Shown here in pieces: positions 41,472 through 53,879 of a DNA stretch of 64,000 nt. The first letter of the stretch is position 1; each line of letters starts with the position of its first letter. The position numbers and the translations under genes were made by a program. The DNA comes from Variovorax paradoxus (GTDB lineage: Bacteria; Pseudomonadota; Gammaproteobacteria; Burkholderiales; Burkholderiaceae_C): contig NZ_CP123990.1 in NCBI RefSeq assembly GCF_029919115.1, forward strand, positions 2,914,001 through 2,978,000. Reading direction: 5' to 3'. The notes below the pieces were generated by a model. That model saw nothing but the letters and a program-made list of their open reading frames with translations, searched no databases and was not told the DNA's origin.

Positions 41472-42302
41472 CTAGGTGGCCCAGATACGCGGCGAGCTTG
41501 GGGGCAATTGCCACAGCTCCGCGCGCCACGCCTGCCACACCTGGCGCAGCAACTGCATCGCGGGCTCGACCACTGGCGCGAGCACGCGCAGCACGACGAT
41601 CTCGGCATGCGGGCTCGTTGCGCCCGCGCTCTCTTGCAGGCCGTGCGCATCAATGGCCGAGCGTGCATGCGCCAGCATCGCATCGCGCCGCGCACGCGCG
41701 GCCGGCGTGCCCGACACGAAGAACAGCGATGCAATGCAGCGGTGCCCGCCGAAGCCCAGTGGGCTTTGCAGCAACCGCTGGTCGGCCGCGTCGATGCGCC
41801 CGCGCTCCAGCCAGATGCCAGGCACCTCGATGTGCTGCAGATACGTGCCGCGTTCGAAAGGCTGGTTTGCGTTGGGCAAGCCCAGGGCGGTCACGTCCCA
41901 GCCGATCATCTCGGCGCCGGGTTCGGCCTCGATGGTGAGGCGGTTCTCAGCCTTGCAGCCGCTGTAGCAGATGGCTTCCAGCGGCAGCCACTCGAGCCGC
42001 GCACCCTGGGCCAGCCGGATGCGCGTGCGCTGCAGCGCCAGCTCGCCTTCGGATCGATAGAAGCGCGAAGCACCGGGCGTGGTGATGAGCCCGTGGCTTC
42101 CATCCGCCGCCTCGATGTCGATGTCCAGCGTGTCGCCACCCACCAGCCCGCCCGGCGGATGCACCAGCACGTTGTGGCAGATGGCATCGCCTTCTGGATA
42201 GAGGCTCTGCAGGATGCGCAGCGGCCCGTCATGGCGAAAGCGTGCGACGCTGCGGGCGGATTCCCGTCGGTAGTCGAGATGAAGATGGGCGTGCCAGGGC
42301 AT
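41472..42302 (-). CDS. ureD: Urease accessory protein UreD (UreH), isolated from the urease operon
   Basis: The 276-residue protein has the UreD hallmarks: FRHDGPLRILQSLYPEG, HNVLVHPPGGLVGGD, TPGASRFYRSEG and LEWLPLEAICYSG. UreD is needed to load nickel into urease with UreF and UreG, forming part of a protein tunnel. In related bacteria ureD is normally followed at once by ureABC. Here the gene downstream on the minus strand is missing; the next feature is a convergent hydrolase gene. It is 24 bp downstream of a nucleoside deaminase gene, so it may now be transcribed with a purine cluster. Urease genes must lie elsewhere if urea is used. Confidence 0.95.
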   Translation of the reverse strand: MPWHAHLHLDYRRESARSVARFRHDGPLRILQSLYPEGDAICHNVLVHPPGGLVGGDTLDIDIEAADGSHGLITTPGASRFYRSEGELALQRTRIRLAQGARLEWLPLEAICYSGCKAENRLTIEAEPGAEMIGWDVTALGLPNANQPFERGTYLQHIEVPGIWLERGRIDAADQRLLQSPLGFGGHRCIASLFFVSGTPAARARRDAMLAHARSAIDAHGLQESAGATSPHAEIVVLRVLAPVVEPAMQLLRQVWQAWRAELWQLPPSSPRIWAT

Positions 42303-42326
42303 CCCTGGAGTCTAGTCGGGCGTTCT

Positions 42327-42872
42327 TTACTTCCACGCTCCGTCATGCGCGGCACTCGCTTCGTCGAGCAGCGCTGGGCCGATGCATTCGATCGGATGCG
42401 GCGACGCGCGGAACACATCGCGGCACGACAGCTCCGCATCGCGCTGGTCCTGCCGCTCGCCGCGGAACACGCGCAGCCGCTCGGCATCGATGCCGAACAC
42501 CACGCGGCCGATGTTCGACCAGAAGATGGCACCCGCGCACATCACGCAGGGCTCGCCCGATGCATAGATGGTGGCGCCCGCAAGCTCTTCGCGCGTGAGG
42601 CCTTTTCCGGCCAGCGCGCGCAGCGCATTCACCTCCGCATGCGCGGTGCAGTCTCCCGTCTCGGTGTTGCTGTTGCCGGCCTCGGCCAGCACCTCGCCGG
42701 CGGCCGAGACGATGACCGACCCGAACGGCCGGTTGCCGCGCCTGCGCGCCGCATGCGACCAGACGATGGCCTTGCGCAGATAACGTTCGTCGCGCTCGTC
42801 GAGCGTGGCTTCTTCAGGGGGTACGGTGTGGCTGTTGCTGATGTTCATGCCTTGGGTAATGTCTTGGCTCAT
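42327..42872 (-). CDS. Nucleoside/purine-base deaminase (guanine or cytosine deaminase fold)
   Basis: This 181-residue protein belongs to the CDA/GuaD zinc deaminase family. The zinc and catalytic motifs are HAE (His78, Glu80; context CTAHAEVNALRAL) and PCVMC (Cys109, Cys112). The start at 42872 overlaps the stop of the transporter-binding protein gene (42869-42872, ATGA), so the two are made together. Their leader holds an NMT1-motif riboswitch, which senses xanthine or urate. A purine-base substrate, such as guanine or an oxidised derivative, is therefore plausible. Homologues are generally annotated as nucleoside deaminases. Confidence 0.88.
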   Translation of the reverse strand: MSQDITQGMNISNSHTVPPEEATLDERDERYLRKAIVWSHAARRRGNRPFGSVIVSAAGEVLAEAGNSNTETGDCTAHAEVNALRALAGKGLTREELAGATIYASGEPCVMCAGAIFWSNIGRVVFGIDAERLRVFRGERQDQRDAELSCRDVFRASPHPIECIGPALLDEASAAHDGAWK

Positions 42873-43894
42873 GTCTTGGAGAGGGTACGTTCGCTCCGCG
42901 ATGGCAGCATCGAAGTGTTGAAGATGGCGTCGGACGCGGGCTTGACCTTGAGGCCGAATACATCGACGACTTCGTCGACCTGCTGCTCGAGCGTGAGTTT
43001 CTTTATGTCGCCCAGGCCATGGCTCCGCGTGTCAGCCGCGCCCACGTATTGCGCCGTCACGCCCCAGCGCTCGAGCTCCATCTTTTCGTCGAGGATGGGT
43101 TCGCGCTGGCGCATGGCCGCAATGCTGGGCGCCGGGTTGGCAAAGGTCTCGACGATGGCGCGGTTGGTGGCGCGCAGAAAAGCCGCAACCAGCTTGGGGT
43201 TCTGCGCAATGAGGTTGCTGCTTGCCAGAATGGCGTTGCCGTACAGGTCGACGCCTGCGTCCGAATACTTGAGCACCGACAGTTCCTCGGCCTTCATGCG
43301 TGCGAAGAGCGAGATGGCTGAATCATGGAAGTAAGTGGCTGCATCGACGTCGCCGCGCACCATCACGTTGTCGCGCGCGCTGAAGTCGGTGGTCTGCCAT
43401 TGGAATGCATCGCTGCGCATGCCTTGCTTGCGCGCCACCATCGGCCACGCGCGGCGGGTCGATTCGACGGCCGCCGCGGCCACCTTCTTGCCCGCCAGGC
43501 TCTTGAAGTCGCCGGTCACGCCGCGGTCCTTGCGGCCGATGATCACGAAGGGTGCGCGGTTGTAGTACTGGTACACGGCCTGCACCATCGGGGTGCCCGG
43601 GTTCTGCGCATTGAACTCGACCAGCGAGCTGATGTCGCCCAGGCCCATCTGGTAGACGCCGCTCGCAATGCGCGTGATGGAGGCGACCGAGCCGGCGCCG
43701 GTGTCGATGGTCACGTCCAGGCCTTCGTCCCTGTAGTAGCCCTTGCTGTGCGCGAGGAAGAACGGCGCGGTCTGCCCGTTGATGCGGAAATCGAGCGTGA
43801 ACTTGAGCGGGGTCAGCTTGCCGCCGCCTTGGGCAAAGACGGCAGGGGCGGCAAGGGTAGCGGCACTGGCCGCAAGAAAGAATCGACGTTGCAT
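42869..43894 (-). CDS. NMT1/SsuA-type ABC transporter substrate-binding protein
   Basis: From the ATG at 43894 the precursor is 341 residues, with signal peptide (MQRRFFLAASAATLAAPAVFA) and mature N-terminus PLKFTLDFRINGQTAPFFLA. The pattern of LDFRxNGQTAPFFLAxxKGYY and GSVASITRIASGVYQMG identifies the NMT1/ThiY-type family, whose members bind pyrimidine precursors, purines, nitrate or sulfonates. The leader contains an NMT1-motif (xanthine-I) riboswitch, so a xanthine/urate-type ligand is expected. No permease or ATPase is encoded beside it. The complete set at 51208-53879 has a second related binding protein and could serve both. Confidence 0.9.
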   Translation of the reverse strand: MQRRFFLAASAATLAAPAVFAQGGGKLTPLKFTLDFRINGQTAPFFLAHSKGYYRDEGLDVTIDTGAGSVASITRIASGVYQMGLGDISSLVEFNAQNPGTPMVQAVYQYYNRAPFVIIGRKDRGVTGDFKSLAGKKVAAAAVESTRRAWPMVARKQGMRSDAFQWQTTDFSARDNVMVRGDVDAATYFHDSAISLFARMKAEELSVLKYSDAGVDLYGNAILASSNLIAQNPKLVAAFLRATNRAIVETFANPAPSIAAMRQREPILDEKMELERWGVTAQYVGAADTRSHGLGDIKKLTLEQQVDEVVDVFGLKVKPASDAIFNTSMLPSRSERTLSKT

Positions 43895-43917
43895 GTGGGG
43901 CCTCGGAATTCTCGGGT

Positions 43918-43954
43918 CTTGAACCCTCCCGCCCAAGGCAGGAGGCACTTCAAG
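43918..43954 (-). promoter_or_regulatory. Putative expression-platform hairpin of the minus-strand xanthine riboswitch
   Basis: In the minus-strand leader a perfect outer pair CTTGAA/TTCAAG (43949-43954 with 43918-43923) encloses an inner 9-bp hairpin (43925-43945, CCTCC at its 5' arm, triloop). Its 5' strand shares bases 43951-43954 with the 3' strand of the aptamer's P1 helix. The two structures cannot form together. It has no T-run, so control may be through mRNA structure rather than termination. Confidence 0.5.
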
Positions 43955-44014
43955 AGCAATTTCCGGGCGGGCGCACAACCGTGGTGCGTGCGCTGCTGAA
44001 CGCTTCTACTCTTG
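43951..44014 (-). ncRNA. NMT1-motif (xanthine-I) riboswitch, minus-strand copy
   Basis: The minus-strand RNA reads CAAGAG, then TAGAAGCGTTCAGC, a variable stem (GCGCAC/GUGCGC), then CCCGGAAATTGC and CTCTTG. P1 is CAAGAG/CUCUUG. The conserved internal-loop sequences GUAGAAGCGUUCAGC and CCGGAAAUUGCUC match the NMT1 motif as I remember it. This motif binds xanthine and urate and controls purine oxidation and transport genes. It lies about 56 nt before the start codon of an NMT1-type binding protein, the gene for which the motif is named. A covariance search would settle the call. Confidence 0.88.
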
Positions 44015-44144
44015 CGCAAGTTCATGCACGAGCCATGCCAAGCCGCATGCCACGGTCTTTTGCTCGGGCATTGCCGTCGGGTGCTTGGAGGCTGCGTCGG
44101 CCCGGGCCACAATGTGGGCGCGCAATTTGCATGGCAAGTGGCGC

Positions 44145-44184
44145 AGAGTAGAAGCGTTCAGCCCCCGCGGCAGGAAATTGCTCT
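44145..44184 (+). ncRNA. NMT1-motif (xanthine-I) riboswitch, tandem copy 1
   Basis: The plus-strand sequence has AGAGTAGAAGCGTTCAGC, a short stem (GCC/GGC with loop CCCGC), and GGAAATTGCTCT. P1 is AGAG/CUCU, four base pairs. The conserved loops equal those of the minus-strand copy and of copy 2. P2 is only about three base pairs, shorter than in the minus-strand copy, so stability may be lower. It is the first of two copies in a perfect 67-bp tandem repeat. Confidence 0.85.
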
Positions 44185-44209
44185 TTCAGGTTCGTTCGTA
44201 CCCACGCGC

Positions 44210-44254
44210 AAAGAGTAGAAGCGTTCAGCCCCCGCGGCAGGAAATTGCTCTTTC
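44210..44254 (+). ncRNA. NMT1-motif (xanthine-I) riboswitch, tandem copy 2 with anti-SD strand
   Basis: The aptamer core (44212-44251) equals copy 1. Two bases of the unit boundary extend P1 to AAAGAG/CUCUUU, six base pairs. The 3' P1 strand CTCTTTC (44248-44254) is complementary to GAAGGAG (44284-44290), the Rieske gene's ribosome binding site, over seven pairs with one G-U. Ligand binding should stabilise P1 and free the site: a translational ON switch. This mechanism is inferred from pairing only. Confidence 0.85.
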
Positions 44255-44297
44255 AGGTTCGTTCGTACCCACGCGCAACAACAGAAGGAGTTCACGC

Positions 44298-45380
44298 ATG
44301 CTCGTCACCCAACAACCCGTCTTCCGCAAGTTCTGGCATGCCGTCATGCCGCTTGCCGACCTGGCCCATGGCCCCAAGCCCTTCACGCTGCTGGGCGAAG
44401 ACATCGTTCTTTTCATCGATGCCGACGGCCAGCCCGCTGCGCTGCGCGACCGCTGCTGCCACCGCACGGCCAAGCTTTCGAAGGGCTGGTGCGTCGACGG
44501 CGAAGGCAAGGCCTGCGGGCAGGGGGCCATCCAATGCGGTTACCACGGCTGGACCTACGACCGCAGCGGCCAGGTGATCCGCATTCCGCAGTACGAGCCC
44601 GACCGAAAGATTTCGCCGGAGTACAAGACGACCGCCTACCGCTGCACTGCGCGCTACGGCTATGCATGGGTGGCACTGGAAGAACCGCTTGCGGATATTC
44701 CGGCGATTCCGGAGTTCACCGACCCGGGCTACCGCACCATCTTCCAGTTCTATGAAGAATGGCAAACCAGCCCGATGCGCGCGCTGGAAAACTCATTCGA
44801 CAACTCGCACTTCAGCTTTGTGCACCGCGCCACCTTCGGCGTGGCCGCAAGCCCGAAGCCGAGCAAGTACGAGCTGGTGGAAAACGAAAACGGCTTCCAT
44901 GCGGAAACTGTGATCGAGGCGGTGAACCCCGCCAAGTTTCACGCCATCAGCGGTGTGACGGACCCGATCACCACGCGTCACATGCGCAACGCTTATTTCC
45001 TGCCGTTCTCGCGCCGGCTCGACATCGAATACCCGAGCGGCGTGCGCCACATCATCATCAACTGCTTCACGCCTATCGACGATGGCCGCATGCAGCTGTG
45101 CCAATGGCTGTTCCGCAACGACACGGAGGCCGATTGCGCGGCGCAGATGCTGATCGATTTCGACGAGGAGATCACGCGCGAGGACAAGGACATCCTCGAA
45201 TCGACAGATCCCGATGCGCTGGTCGATACGCGGCGGCGAGGTGTCGAATATTCAATGGAGTCCGACCGGCCGGGGATGCTGATTCGCAAGCACCTGATGC
45301 AGTTGCTTGCGAAGCATGGCGAGGCGGAGGTTTACCGCGGGATGAACGCTGTGACCATTCCGATTGCGAAGGCTGCGTGA
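44298..45380 (+). CDS. Rieske non-heme iron oxygenase, alpha subunit, under xanthine riboswitch control
   Basis: The ATG at 44298 follows AGAAGGAG. The frame upstream is open through the tandem riboswitch but is not coding. The 360-residue enzyme has a Rieske [2Fe-2S] domain with Cys53-x-His55 and Cys80-x2-His83 (CGYHGW). The mononuclear iron site follows as ENSFDNSHFSFVH (Asp168, His171, His176). Such oxygenases use NADH-derived electrons from a separate reductase to hydroxylate or N/O-demethylate ring compounds. No reductase or ferredoxin gene is beside it. Two NMT1-motif aptamers in the leader suggest a purine-related substrate such as urate, xanthine, methylxanthine or an oxidised guanine. 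That is inference. Confidence 0.93.
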   Translation: MLVTQQPVFRKFWHAVMPLADLAHGPKPFTLLGEDIVLFIDADGQPAALRDRCCHRTAKLSKGWCVDGEGKACGQGAIQCGYHGWTYDRSGQVIRIPQYEPDRKISPEYKTTAYRCTARYGYAWVALEEPLADIPAIPEFTDPGYRTIFQFYEEWQTSPMRALENSFDNSHFSFVHRATFGVAASPKPSKYELVENENGFHAETVIEAVNPAKFHAISGVTDPITTRHMRNAYFLPFSRRLDIEYPSGVRHIIINCFTPIDDGRMQLCQWLFRNDTEADCAAQMLIDFDEEITREDKDILESTDPDALVDTRRRGVEYSMESDRPGMLIRKHLMQLLAKHGEAEVYRGMNAVTIPIAKAA

Positions 45381-50720: not shown

Positions 50721-51197
50721 CTAACGCGCTTCCCAGAAGCCGCGGTGCGTGGCGATCATCTCGTCCGCCACTCCAGGCACCGGCCCGATCACTTCGATCT
50801 TCTTCTGCCCGCGAGCGAACACTTCGCGGCAGGGCAGACTCAGCGTGGGGTTTTCGGGGTGGTCGCCCGTGAGCGCGAGCAATGCGCTTTCTTCCGCCCC
50901 GTAGATAACGCGGCCAATGTTTGCCCAATAGCTGGTGCCCGCACACATTGCGCAAGGCTCGAAGGTTGTCACCAGCGTGCATTGCCACAGGTAGTCTGCC
51001 GGCCAGTTTTGCGCGGCATGGCGCGCGAGCGTGGCCTCGGCGTGGTTCACCGTGTCGATGTTGCCCTGCTCGGCCAGGACGGTTTCGCCGTCGGGCGCAA
51101 TAAGCACGGCGCCGAACGGGTGCCGTCCCATGGCCATGGCGCGGCGGGCCACCTCATCGGCCCGGCGCAAGGCGCGAATGATCTGGTCGTGCGTCAT
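50721..51197 (-). CDS. Nucleoside/purine-base deaminase, second copy
   Basis: The 158-residue protein has HAE (His52, Glu54; in VNHAEATLARH) and PCAMC (Cys82, Cys85), the zinc site of the cytidine/guanine deaminase fold. It differs clearly from the deaminase at 42327. It is the last gene of an operon with a full ABC transporter (binding protein, ATPase, permease), 10 bp downstream of the permease. The imported compound is therefore probably a deaminase substrate, such as a purine or pyrimidine base. Confidence 0.9.
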   Translation of the reverse strand: MTHDQIIRALRRADEVARRAMAMGRHPFGAVLIAPDGETVLAEQGNIDTVNHAEATLARHAAQNWPADYLWQCTLVTTFEPCAMCAGTSYWANIGRVIYGAEESALLALTGDHPENPTLSLPCREVFARGQKKIEVIGPVPGVADEMIATHRGFWEAR

Positions 51198-51207
51198 GAG
51201 CCGCGCC

Positions 51208-51978
51208 TCACTGGTTTTGCGATCCGCGATGCGCCCAGCCGGTCGTGTGCTTCTCGATCACGCTGAAGAGTTCGTACATCAGCATGGCCATTGCGCCCAC
51301 CACCATCAGGCCCGCGAAGGCCAGGCCCATCTGCATGGCCGAGCCGGCGGAAATCAGCAGGTAGCCGATGCCTTCGTTGGCGGCCGTCATTTCGCTCACT
51401 GTGGTGCCGACAAAGGCCAGCGTGATCGCGACCTTGAGCGAGCCGAAGAAGTACGGCATGGAGCGCGGCAGGCCAATTTTCACAAGCACGTCCCAGCGCT
51501 TGGCGCCGAGCACGCGCAGCACGTCTTCCAGCTCGGGCTCCAGGGTGGCAAGGCCGGTGGCAATGTTCACCATGATCGGGAAGAAGCTGATCAGGAAGGC
51601 CGTGAGAATGGCCGGGCCGACGCCGATGCCGAACCACACCACCAGGATGGGCACGAAGGCCGCCTTCGGCAGCGCGTTGAAGGCCGTCATGAGCGGATAG
51701 ATCGCCGCATACGCGATGCGCGAGCTGCCGATCACGAAGCCCAGCAGCACGCCCACCACAATGGCCAGGCCGAAGCCCGCCATCGTGACCCAGAAGGTGC
51801 GCCATGCATGGCCCGCGATGATTTCCTTGAATTCCCAGAACTGGTTCCAGATGCGCAGCGGGCTCGGAAAAATGAAGTCCGACACGCCGAAACCGGCGCA
51901 GATCACCTGCCACAGCAGGATTACCGCCACGAGCAGCAGCCAGGGCGACCAGCGTTCGATTTGCTTGGTGTTCTTCAT
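51208..51978 (-). CDS. ABC transporter permease, NitT/TauT (SsuC) type
   Basis: The 256-residue protein has six membrane helices. The inner-membrane coupling motif EAA is in LEDVLRVLGAKRWDVLVKIGLPRSMPYFFGSLKVAI (recognised by LGAKRWDVLVKIGLP). It resembles SsuC/TauC/ThiX permeases. With the ATPase at 51988 and binding protein at 52845 it forms a complete importer. It may also accept the orphan binding protein at 42869. The start overlaps nothing; it follows the ATPase by nine bases. Confidence 0.94.
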   Translation of the reverse strand: MKNTKQIERWSPWLLLVAVILLWQVICAGFGVSDFIFPSPLRIWNQFWEFKEIIAGHAWRTFWVTMAGFGLAIVVGVLLGFVIGSSRIAYAAIYPLMTAFNALPKAAFVPILVVWFGIGVGPAILTAFLISFFPIMVNIATGLATLEPELEDVLRVLGAKRWDVLVKIGLPRSMPYFFGSLKVAITLAFVGTTVSEMTAANEGIGYLLISAGSAMQMGLAFAGLMVVGAMAMLMYELFSVIEKHTTGWAHRGSQNQ

Positions 51979-51987
51979 GGCGCGCCT

Positions 51988-52845
51988 TCAGTGGGACACC
52001 GCGGCCGCTGTTTGCGCCGCGCTGATGCCCGTGTTGCGAATGGCGCCGATGTGCCCGCGCAGCTCCAGCACGATGTCGGTGAACTCCTTGGTGTAGGTGA
52101 GCTCAAGCTCGCGCGGACGCGGCAACTCGATCTCGCGCTTGACCACGAAGCGGCCCGGGCTCTTGCTCATCACATAAACCGTGTCGGCCAGGAACACCGA
52201 TTCGCGCAGGTCGTGCGTCACCAGGATGACGTTGAACTGCTGCTCGGTCCAGAGGTCGCGAAGAATGCACCAGAGCTCTTCGCGCGTGAAGGCGTCGAGC
52301 GCGCCGAAGGGCTCGTCGAGCAGCAGCATCTTTGGCTCGTGGATGAGCGCGCGGCAAATGCTTGCGCGCTGCTGCATGCCGCCCGAAAGCTGCCACGGAA
52401 ACTTGTCTTCATAGCCTGCAAGGCCCACCTTCTGCAGCAGCTTGCGCGCGCGCTCGACGTATTCCTTGCGCTTGGCCTTGAAACTCGAACGGTAGGGCTC
52501 GACGATTTCGAGCGGCAGCAGCACGTTGTCGACCGTGGTGCGCCACGGCAGCAGCGAAGGCGCTTGAAACGCCATGCCCGAGATCTTGAGCGGCCCGGTC
52601 ACGGGCTGCCCATCGATGCGGATCTTGCCCATCGACGGCATCTTCAGCCCCGTGGTGAGCTTCATGAACGTCGACTTGCCGCAGCCCGACGGCCCGACGA
52701 TGGCGATGAATTCCCCGCGCTTCACCTTCAGGTCGATGGCCTCGACCGCGAAGTGGTTGGCGCGCAGCAGCTCTTCGTTGTAGGCGAGCCAGACGTCCTG
52801 AAAGTCGACGAAGGGAGCTGCGGCCTCGCTCGATGCGTCTGCCAT
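51988..52845 (-). CDS. ABC transporter ATPase, NitT/TauT (SsuB) type
   Basis: The ATG at 52845 shares one base with the stop of the binding-protein gene (TGATG). The 285 residues have Walker A VGPSGCGKST, the signature LSGGMQQRASICRAL and Walker B MLLLDEPFGALD, with THDLRES in the switch. A C-terminal extension (LPRPRELELTYTKEFTD) of about 40 residues is common in the TauB/SsuB type. It powers uptake through the permease encoded next. Confidence 0.95.
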   Translation of the reverse strand: MADASSEAAAPFVDFQDVWLAYNEELLRANHFAVEAIDLKVKRGEFIAIVGPSGCGKSTFMKLTTGLKMPSMGKIRIDGQPVTGPLKISGMAFQAPSLLPWRTTVDNVLLPLEIVEPYRSSFKAKRKEYVERARKLLQKVGLAGYEDKFPWQLSGGMQQRASICRALIHEPKMLLLDEPFGALDAFTREELWCILRDLWTEQQFNVILVTHDLRESVFLADTVYVMSKSPGRFVVKREIELPRPRELELTYTKEFTDIVLELRGHIGAIRNTGISAAQTAAAVSH

Positions 52846-53879
52846 CACTTGCGCAGCACGCCGTTGAGTTCGGCTGCGGGCGGCAGCATTGCCGCGGTCC
52901 ACACCGCGTCTGGGCTCACGCGCGTCTTGGTGTTGAATGCGTCCGACACTTGCGAAGCCATCAGCGACATGCGGCCGGCGTTCACCGCGCCAAAGCCTTC
53001 GCTGCGCGCGTCGGCGCTGTTGATCACGGTGTCGATGGCCAGCTGCAGGCGGCGGGTTTCGAGCTTGCTGTCGATGATGCCGTCGCGCGCTTTTACCGAT
53101 TCGATGGCCACAGCCGGGTTGGCGATGACTTCCTTCGCGCCCTTGGCAAACGCCGAGAGGAATTTCTTCACCGCTTCAGGGTTCTCCTTGATGAGCTTGG
53201 GCGACGCGATGATCACGTTGCCGTACAGCTTCACGCCGTAGTCGGGGTAGGGCAGCACGACGATGTCGGCCGCCTTGGCGCCGCGCGCCTCCAGGTTGAG
53301 CAGCGAGGTAAAGGTGAAGCCCGTAATCGCGTCGATGTCGCCGCGGATCAGCATGGTTTCGCGCAGCGTCGGGTCCATGGCGGTCCAGTTGACGGCGCCG
53401 ATGTTGTTGGCCTTGGCAAAGATCGGGAAGGCGCGGCGGCCCGCGTCGAACACCGGTGCGCCGAGCTTCTTGCCGGCCAGGTCAGCCGGCTTGGTGATGC
53501 CGCTCTTCTTGAGCGTCATGACCGATGCCGGCGTGTTGTTGTAGACCATCATCACCGCGACCGGCTTGTTGGGGCTGTCGGGGTTGTTGGCGTGGAATTC
53601 CATCAGCGCGGCAAGGTCGGCAAAGCCCATTTCGTAGGCGCCGGAGGCCACGCGCGTGACGGTACCGCCCGAGCCATTGCCCGCGTCGATGGTCACGTCC
53701 AGGCCCGCGGCCTTGAAGTAGCCCTTGGCGGCAGGGTGCAGGAACAGCGCGGCCGGACCTTCGAAGCGCCAGTCGAGCTGGAACTTGATCGGCGTCGTGG
53801 TCTGGGCAAGGGCCGACGAAAGGCCGAAGCTGAGGGCCGAGGCGGCGAGGAAGGACTGGAGCAGTTGGCGCTTGTTCAT
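52845..53879 (-). CDS. NMT1/SsuA-type ABC transporter substrate-binding protein, second copy
   Basis: From the ATG at 53879 the precursor has 344 residues with signal peptide (RQLLQSFLAASALSFGLSSALA). The mature N-terminus PIKFQLDWRFEGPAALFLHPAAKGYFKAAGLDV fits the NMT1/ThiY family and is visibly similar to the protein at 42869 (shared KGY, LDVTIDAG and GYE-/GVYQMG regions). It heads an operon with ATPase, permease and deaminase. I looked for an NMT1-motif riboswitch in the 230 bp before it and found none. Ligand: probably a purine/pyrimidine-type base, from the deaminase context. Confidence 0.92.
   Translation of the reverse strand: MNKRQLLQSFLAASALSFGLSSALAQTTTPIKFQLDWRFEGPAALFLHPAAKGYFKAAGLDVTIDAGNGSGGTVTRVASGAYEMGFADLAALMEFHANNPDSPNKPVAVMMVYNNTPASVMTLKKSGITKPADLAGKKLGAPVFDAGRRAFPIFAKANNIGAVNWTAMDPTLRETMLIRGDIDAITGFTFTSLLNLEARGAKAADIVVLPYPDYGVKLYGNVIIASPKLIKENPEAVKKFLSAFAKGAKEVIANPAVAIESVKARDGIIDSKLETRRLQLAIDTVINSADARSEGFGAVNAGRMSLMASQVSDAFNTKTRVSPDAVWTAAMLPPAAELNGVLRK

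Follow-up and report, generated by a model that had tools for sequence, protein, structure and literature searches.

Two riboswitch copies before one gene

What does a gene gain, if anything, from a riboswitch that stands before it twice? The question is raised by the window (the whole 64,000-nt stretch of Variovorax paradoxus DNA analysed here), in which two adjacent and 100% identical units of 67 nt (44145-44211 and 44212-44278, plus strand) precede a gene for a Rieske oxygenase of 360 aa (44298-45380, plus strand, start codon at 44298). An earlier note, made from the sequence alone, had described each unit as holding a complete NMT1-motif aptamer, and this reading stands: both match the Rfam family RF03054 (xanthine riboswitch / NMT1 motif) over its full length and above its curated cut-off of 36 bits, with 48.2 bits (E 1.3e-7) for copy 1 (aptamer 44141-44188) and 49.0 bits (E 7.8e-8) for copy 2 (aptamer 44208-44255). 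Standard pairs occupy 10 of 10 core positions checked (P1, P2a and the start of P2b) in each copy. The covariance-model search of the window also returned a third aptamer absent from the note, located divergently on the minus strand (43949-44016, 54.0 bits) before the gene for an NMT1/THI5-like ABC substrate-binding protein (42869-43894, minus strand, start at 43894; PF09084, 124.5 bits). These three are the only RF03054 matches in the whole genome; 124 nt separate the minus-strand aptamer from the first plus-strand match, and 19 nt the two plus-strand matches from each other.

The plus-strand copies run in the same direction, with no ORF between them and within a gap of 300 nt, which is how tandem riboswitches are defined by Sherlock et al. 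2022 (PMC9481103), and they share a single expression platform, i.e. one Shine-Dalgarno (SD) sequence and one start codon downstream of both. A search of 43900-44320 returned neither a terminator-like nor a sigma-70-like site. Among direct repeats of at least 50 nt in the window (exact seeds of 20), the tandem is accompanied by one other pair, 225 nt long and 71% identical. The Rfam model gives either copy the P1 AGAGUA/UGCUCU; the strand AAAGAG (44210-44215, plus strand), which spans the unit junction and forms the 5' side of the extended P1 in copy 2, adds two A-U pairs there (AAAGAG/CUCUUU). P1 thus counts 6 bp in copy 1 and 8 bp in copy 2, so that the junction does lengthen P1 as had been proposed, while the proposed lengths of 4 and 6 bp have to be corrected.

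The oxygenase and its surroundings

The oxygenase carries Rieske and VanA_C domains (Pfam PF00355 and PF19112), and among solved structures it comes nearest to two methylxanthine demethylases, NdmB and NdmA, and to SxtT and SxtDIOX (E 4e-30 to 5e-29). These relatives fit an oxygenase with a purine-like substrate, not pinned to one compound; none of the NCBIfam models reaches its cut-off on the protein. The riboswitch thus stands before genes of the purine oxidation and transport type, the gene context of its class, and the published gene list of the class includes dioxygenases (Yu and Breaker 2020, PMC7373994). The minus-strand neighbours of the NMT1 gene, at 41472-42872, are a deaminase gene, to which the NCBIfam model TadA comes nearest without reaching its cut-off, and the urease accessory gene ureD, a neighbourhood that fits a setting of purine breakdown. 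The segment 53572-53796 is 71% identical over 225 nt to 43590-43814, part of the NMT1 gene. Near it are genes for an ABC permease (51208-51978), an ATPase (51988-52902) and a second deaminase (50721-51197), and the RF03054 search of the window returned no match there.

Occurrence and origin of the tandem

A tandem arrangement of this riboswitch is rare in the genomes sampled. Within the genus, 92 of 101 genomes contain an RF03054 match (the filters drop some weak matches), and in one of these 92, the window's own genome, the matches form a tandem. Inspected by eye, 10 of the 92 hold a single match and the 81 others besides the window's genome hold matches on opposite strands or far apart, the divergent pair being the usual arrangement; same-strand neighbours elsewhere in the genus are separated by 9 kb (G024) and by 27 kb (G097). 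A third xanthine riboswitch at a separate place occurs in three genus genomes, G033, G005 and G004 (loci L004, L005 and L006), with the top scores of the genus list (60.9 bits). The family sample yielded matches in 75 of 399 genomes and again a tandem only in the window's genome (1/75); six other family genomes have same-strand pairs on one contig, each more than 2.5 kb apart, and four of these include a member below cut-off. In the sample of the taxonomic class, 4 of 369 genomes had a match (2 above cut-off), and the window's genome was the sole one with a tandem. Weak matches of 28.1 bits, below cut-off, occur in two genomes of another family of that class (L213, L214).

We also scanned the genome_contigs collection (84,980 species; records close to the window's genome possibly excluded) with a tandem pattern built on the core GTAGAAGCG and covering start-to-start spacings of 39-99 nt. 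This gave 71 stretches, none of them with an RF03054 match. A filter demanding CAG after each core passed 0 of the 71 and was set aside, since real aptamers can lack that G; therefore all 71 were scanned with Rfam. Of 156 aptamer-like stretches in 79 loci, the half-pattern recovers 145 (the 11 misses all have loops >48 nt), a proportion that overstates its sensitivity because the 156 came from a looser pattern itself requiring TAGAAGCG.

The literature agrees with the earlier note, which knew of no described tandem xanthine-I pair: the survey table of Sherlock et al. 2022 (PMC9481103) places xanthine-I among the classes not found in tandem, and we found no described tandem xanthine riboswitch among the matches listed from the open-licence part of PubMed Central, where the class is also the subject of a crystal-structure paper (PMC8266621). 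The divergent pair was already known: copies facing opposite ways in H. intermedia were noted by Yu and Breaker 2020 (PMC7373994). The tandem duplication is thus real in the assembly, belongs to a known riboswitch class and has been seen once so far.

How the second copy arose can be read from the relatives. For the comparison 39 of 40 genus loci were usable (L143 was excluded); they provide 38 Rieske-side leaders, every one single-copy, and one locus with a different gene at that place (L132). Six of them (L107, L109, L110, L113, L118 and L119) differ from the window's unit by one base in ungapped comparison, and none of the 39 loci contains the unit junction. In the relatives, as in the window, GCGC-AGAG leads into the unit, and in the nearest relatives CGCGCAA-CAAC comes after it; the event was therefore a plain duplication. 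Its junction, CAA-AGAG, is the source of the two added A-U pairs in P1 of copy 2. An insertion of AA at the junction was considered and ruled out, as both A are the end of unit 1.

The exact identity of the units fits a recent event, but the further proposal of a duplication under selection for higher expression finds no support: the identity carries no information on selection, the arrangement is found in one genome, and a neutral event there fits equally well. The strongest rival to a functional tandem is indeed a genuine but neutral duplication that will not last, one copy working and the other being a bystander to be lost, which we regard as quite possible though short of an even chance. 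An exact identity of 67 bp that leaves no trace of selection would be expected of such a bystander, as would its restriction to one of 92 genus genomes with a match; moreover, the single-copy relatives share the switching strand and the SD described below, so that one gene-proximal copy is enough for the logic of the switch.

A conserved helix between P1 and the Shine-Dalgarno sequence

In free folds of the leaders examined, the P1 3' strand GCUCUUUC pairs with the SD sequence GAAGGAGU (in L121 only with coding sequence included). In the window the former occurs twice on the plus strand, at 44180-44187 in copy 1, where AAAGAG (44210-44215) is its alternative partner by predicted pair probabilities, and at 44247-44254 in copy 2, where folds, alignment and pair probabilities mark it as the anti-SD strand. 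The SD lies at 44284-44291, also on the plus strand, and the minimum free energy folds predict a small hairpin (44257-44282) in the linker that joins the anti-SD strand to it.

RNAalifold, applied to 40 distinct leaders, returned exactly these 8 pairs and no other conserved helix. The genus contributes 29 of these leaders and other genera the remaining 11, five of which stand before Rieske genes and six before a gene recognised by an N-terminal motif; one of the six (L186) encodes the Pfam DIOX_N domain of isopenicillin-N-synthase-like oxygenases. The family loci comprise 78 aptamer sides in 40 loci (34 NMT1-like, 21 pcbC-like, 5 Rieske and 18 unclassified), and the covariation test took 7 of the 21 pcbC-like sides, those with the start codon <60 nt from the aptamer. 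Standard pairs were found in 96.9% of 318 cells, compared to 50.7-67.5% in slid versions and 89.1% in shuffled ones. Beyond P1, 8 sequences at each of the two outer pairs carry changes in both partners (outer pair 1: UA 29, GC 8, unpaired 3; outer pair 2: CG 27, AU 7, GC 1, unpaired 5). In none of 500 shuffles was the percentage paired, the number of cells changed on both sides or the covariation score higher. The number of pairs changed in both partners (2; shuffled 1.9, with 449 of 500 as high) and that of further pair types (6; shuffled 5.6, with 296 of 500 as high) are not remarkable. The covariation signal thus rests on two pairs, and the six inner ones prove little because the aptamer and the SD themselves hold them nearly constant. 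One compensatory change (CUCUUUG with CAAGGAG in L127) was scored against the helix because MAFFT had shifted this row in the alignment (A1).

Two energy comparisons point in the same direction. For 11 representatives, hand-picked from 51 leaders, matched strand pairs sum to -125.0 kcal/mol compared to -102.5 +/- 6.0 kcal/mol for permuted ones (p = 1.4e-4). For 20 of the 39 genus leaders the cost of opening the SD was calculated: it is 5.6-8.9 kcal/mol, compared to means of 3.1-4.8 for shuffled linkers (mean z 2.8). The native value is reached by no more than 3 of 100 linker shuffles in 15 of these leaders; the weakest cases are L122 (23/100) and L141 (9/100). The helix varies in length, with 10 or 11 pairs in L193 and L211, bulges in L176, L191 and L195, and 7 pairs instead of 8 in L141. 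Taken together, the sequestering helix is conserved and covarying on the Rieske side and in some other oxygenase leaders, and a platform common to them may be a more general result than the tandem itself.

The sign of the switch

P1 is required for ligand binding, as reported for the published mutant M3 (Yu and Breaker 2020, PMC7373994). Because the P1 3' strand is common to P1 and to the SD-blocking helix, the ligand-bound aptamer and the blocked SD are mutually exclusive. The simplest reading of the sequence is that xanthine would turn the Rieske gene ON, a sign opposite to the published one. Control would be exerted at translation: GCUCUUUC would pair either with the P1 5' strand, in the bound aptamer, or with the SD, so that ligand would let P1 form, free the SD and switch the gene ON.

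The rival here is an OFF switch as published for the class, in which the bound P1 lowers Rieske translation and two aptamers in series sharpen the repression. It draws on the one reporter test of the class known to us, from H. intermedia S1, where a binding-dead mutant was expressed above wild type (Yu and Breaker 2020, PMC7373994). At the present locus, however, P1 and the blocking helix share a strand, the blocking helix covaries at two pairs, and the 40 leaders offered no other conserved helix. Moreover, the two sides of the divergent locus differ in platform. In 35 distinct NMT1-side leaders of the genus (of 39) there is a conserved anti-P1 helix, UCUUGAA/UUCAAGA, which competes with P1 and does not hold the SD; the sign may therefore differ between the sides, and the conflict with the published OFF sign may be only apparent. 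Around the SD, most of the NMT1-side leaders carry UUCCGAGGCC, and their platform does not resemble the Rieske-side one. The H. intermedia construct was picked partly for its short distance to the ribosome-binding site, and the text of that report, as far as it describes the construct, names neither platform nor side; a protein search had no Hydrogenophaga among the 120 matches listed. As the side tested there is not stated, the ON sign remains one that we infer. We consider an OFF switch unlikely.

An attempt to derive the sign by forcing the aptamer in folding calculations was set aside. The SD opened in all 39 Rieske-side leaders, yet it did so too in 34 of 37 NMT1-side leaders (39 minus 2 without an SD by rule; L116 had been dropped earlier for want of a start codon), and a calculation that both sides answer likewise cannot discriminate the sign. 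The constrained-fold energies are large because the non-canonical aptamer core is not represented in the model.

Predicted behaviour of the tandem

The earlier note had suggested that CUCUUU of copy 1 could pair with AAAGAG of copy 2. The predicted ligand-free ensemble agrees (mean pair probability 0.67-0.69), and the pairing gains meaning because the P1 3' strand can also make the helix with the SD. Strand 2 is predicted here to be bound to the SD (0.98). Strand 1 hardly touches the SD (0.01) and prefers AAAGAG of copy 2 (0.67). Without ligand, then, strand 1 would hold AAAGAG of copy 2 and strand 2 would hold the SD; once aptamer 1 holds ligand, AAAGAG would be free, P1 of copy 2 could build and the SD would be released. 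Such a relay, with every P1 3' strand masking the purine-rich stretch that follows it, would make a cooperative ON device out of one duplication and would be the first tandem xanthine-I riboswitch known to us; we put it forward tentatively, as rather less probable than the broader explanation given below. P1 forms at no more than 0.012 without ligand in the folds; because it is nearly excluded there, switching would have to occur during transcription.

A two-site model based on constrained equilibrium folds of the leader, with co-transcriptional folding outside its scope, predicts how the copies might combine. For the leader only, the predicted open-SD fraction rises from 0.0022 in the unbound state to 0.11 or 0.12 once one of the aptamers is in place and to 0.72 once both are. 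The energy needed to form the two together is 11.6 kcal/mol, compared to 7.0 and 6.2 singly, so that they are coupled by -1.6. With an apparent Hill value of 1.46 the response is steeper than that of a single copy, and the half response is predicted at about 40 times less ligand than in a single-copy leader (log10 lambda50 4.20 compared to 5.80). With 24 nt of coding sequence the coupling drops to -0.8, the Hill value becomes 1.04 and the SD is open in 0.018 of molecules when both aptamers are formed, while a sensitivity gain of about 26-fold is kept (log10 lambda50 5.74 compared to 7.16); the size of the effect is thus not robust, because the added sequence shrinks both Hill value and open fraction. 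The longer P1 of copy 2 is not the source of the steepness, as model tandems without the two junction A still give Hill values of 1.55 and 1.59. It does lower the formation cost of aptamer 2 (6.2 compared to 8.4 kcal/mol, leader only).

These calculations speak against a mere bystander, in that the tandem needs less ligand in the model and, for the leader only, responds more steeply, which is a property of the model and not a sign of selection. The explanation we favour, and hold to be slightly better than an even bet, is that a 67-bp xanthine/urate riboswitch unit, comprising the aptamer and its switching strand, was recently duplicated before the Rieske oxygenase gene and that the two copies act in series in a translational ON switch; here we infer the ligand binding at this locus, the ON sign and the action in series. 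An error of assembly or sequencing is a very improbable source of the second copy: Sherlock et al. 2022 (PMC9481103) name assembly-error duplicates as a source of false tandems, but the genome is a single, 100% complete contig of 5,810,675 bases (5.81 Mb), a weak argument as a collapsed or doubled 67-bp unit can survive in a finished assembly.

Comparison with known systems

The locus catches a tandem while its copies are still identical and offers 38 single-copy relatives for comparison. It is therefore a natural test of whether the bare duplication of an aptamer steepens the response at once. If the platform is read correctly, the class would include ON switches for oxygenases, which would bear on what Yu and Breaker 2020 (PMC7373994) remarked, namely that, among the genes under control of the class as listed there, none degrades oxidised purines.

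Compared to the xanthine riboswitch as described (NMT1 motif, RF03054; PMC7373994), the present leader is alike in aptamer sequence and fold, divergent placement, association with transport and purine oxidation genes, and control at the ribosome site, but it differs in having two tandem aptamers and a platform that predicts ON where the published reporter was OFF. With the pseudo-cooperative tandems of the TPP type (Sherlock et al. 2022, PMC9481103) it shares repeated units, one ligand and one leader; it differs in that the search of 43900-44320 brought up no terminator-like site, so that the copies do not resemble two independent decision points. Cooperative tandems of the glycine type, as treated in the same survey (PMC9481103), likewise have two like and adjacent aptamers for the same ligand before one expression platform. 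The tandem described here differs from them in that its copies are identical and that any cooperativity, for which the folding model predicts a Hill value of 1.46 or 1.04 according to the length of RNA included, would be passed on through alternative pairing of their strands.
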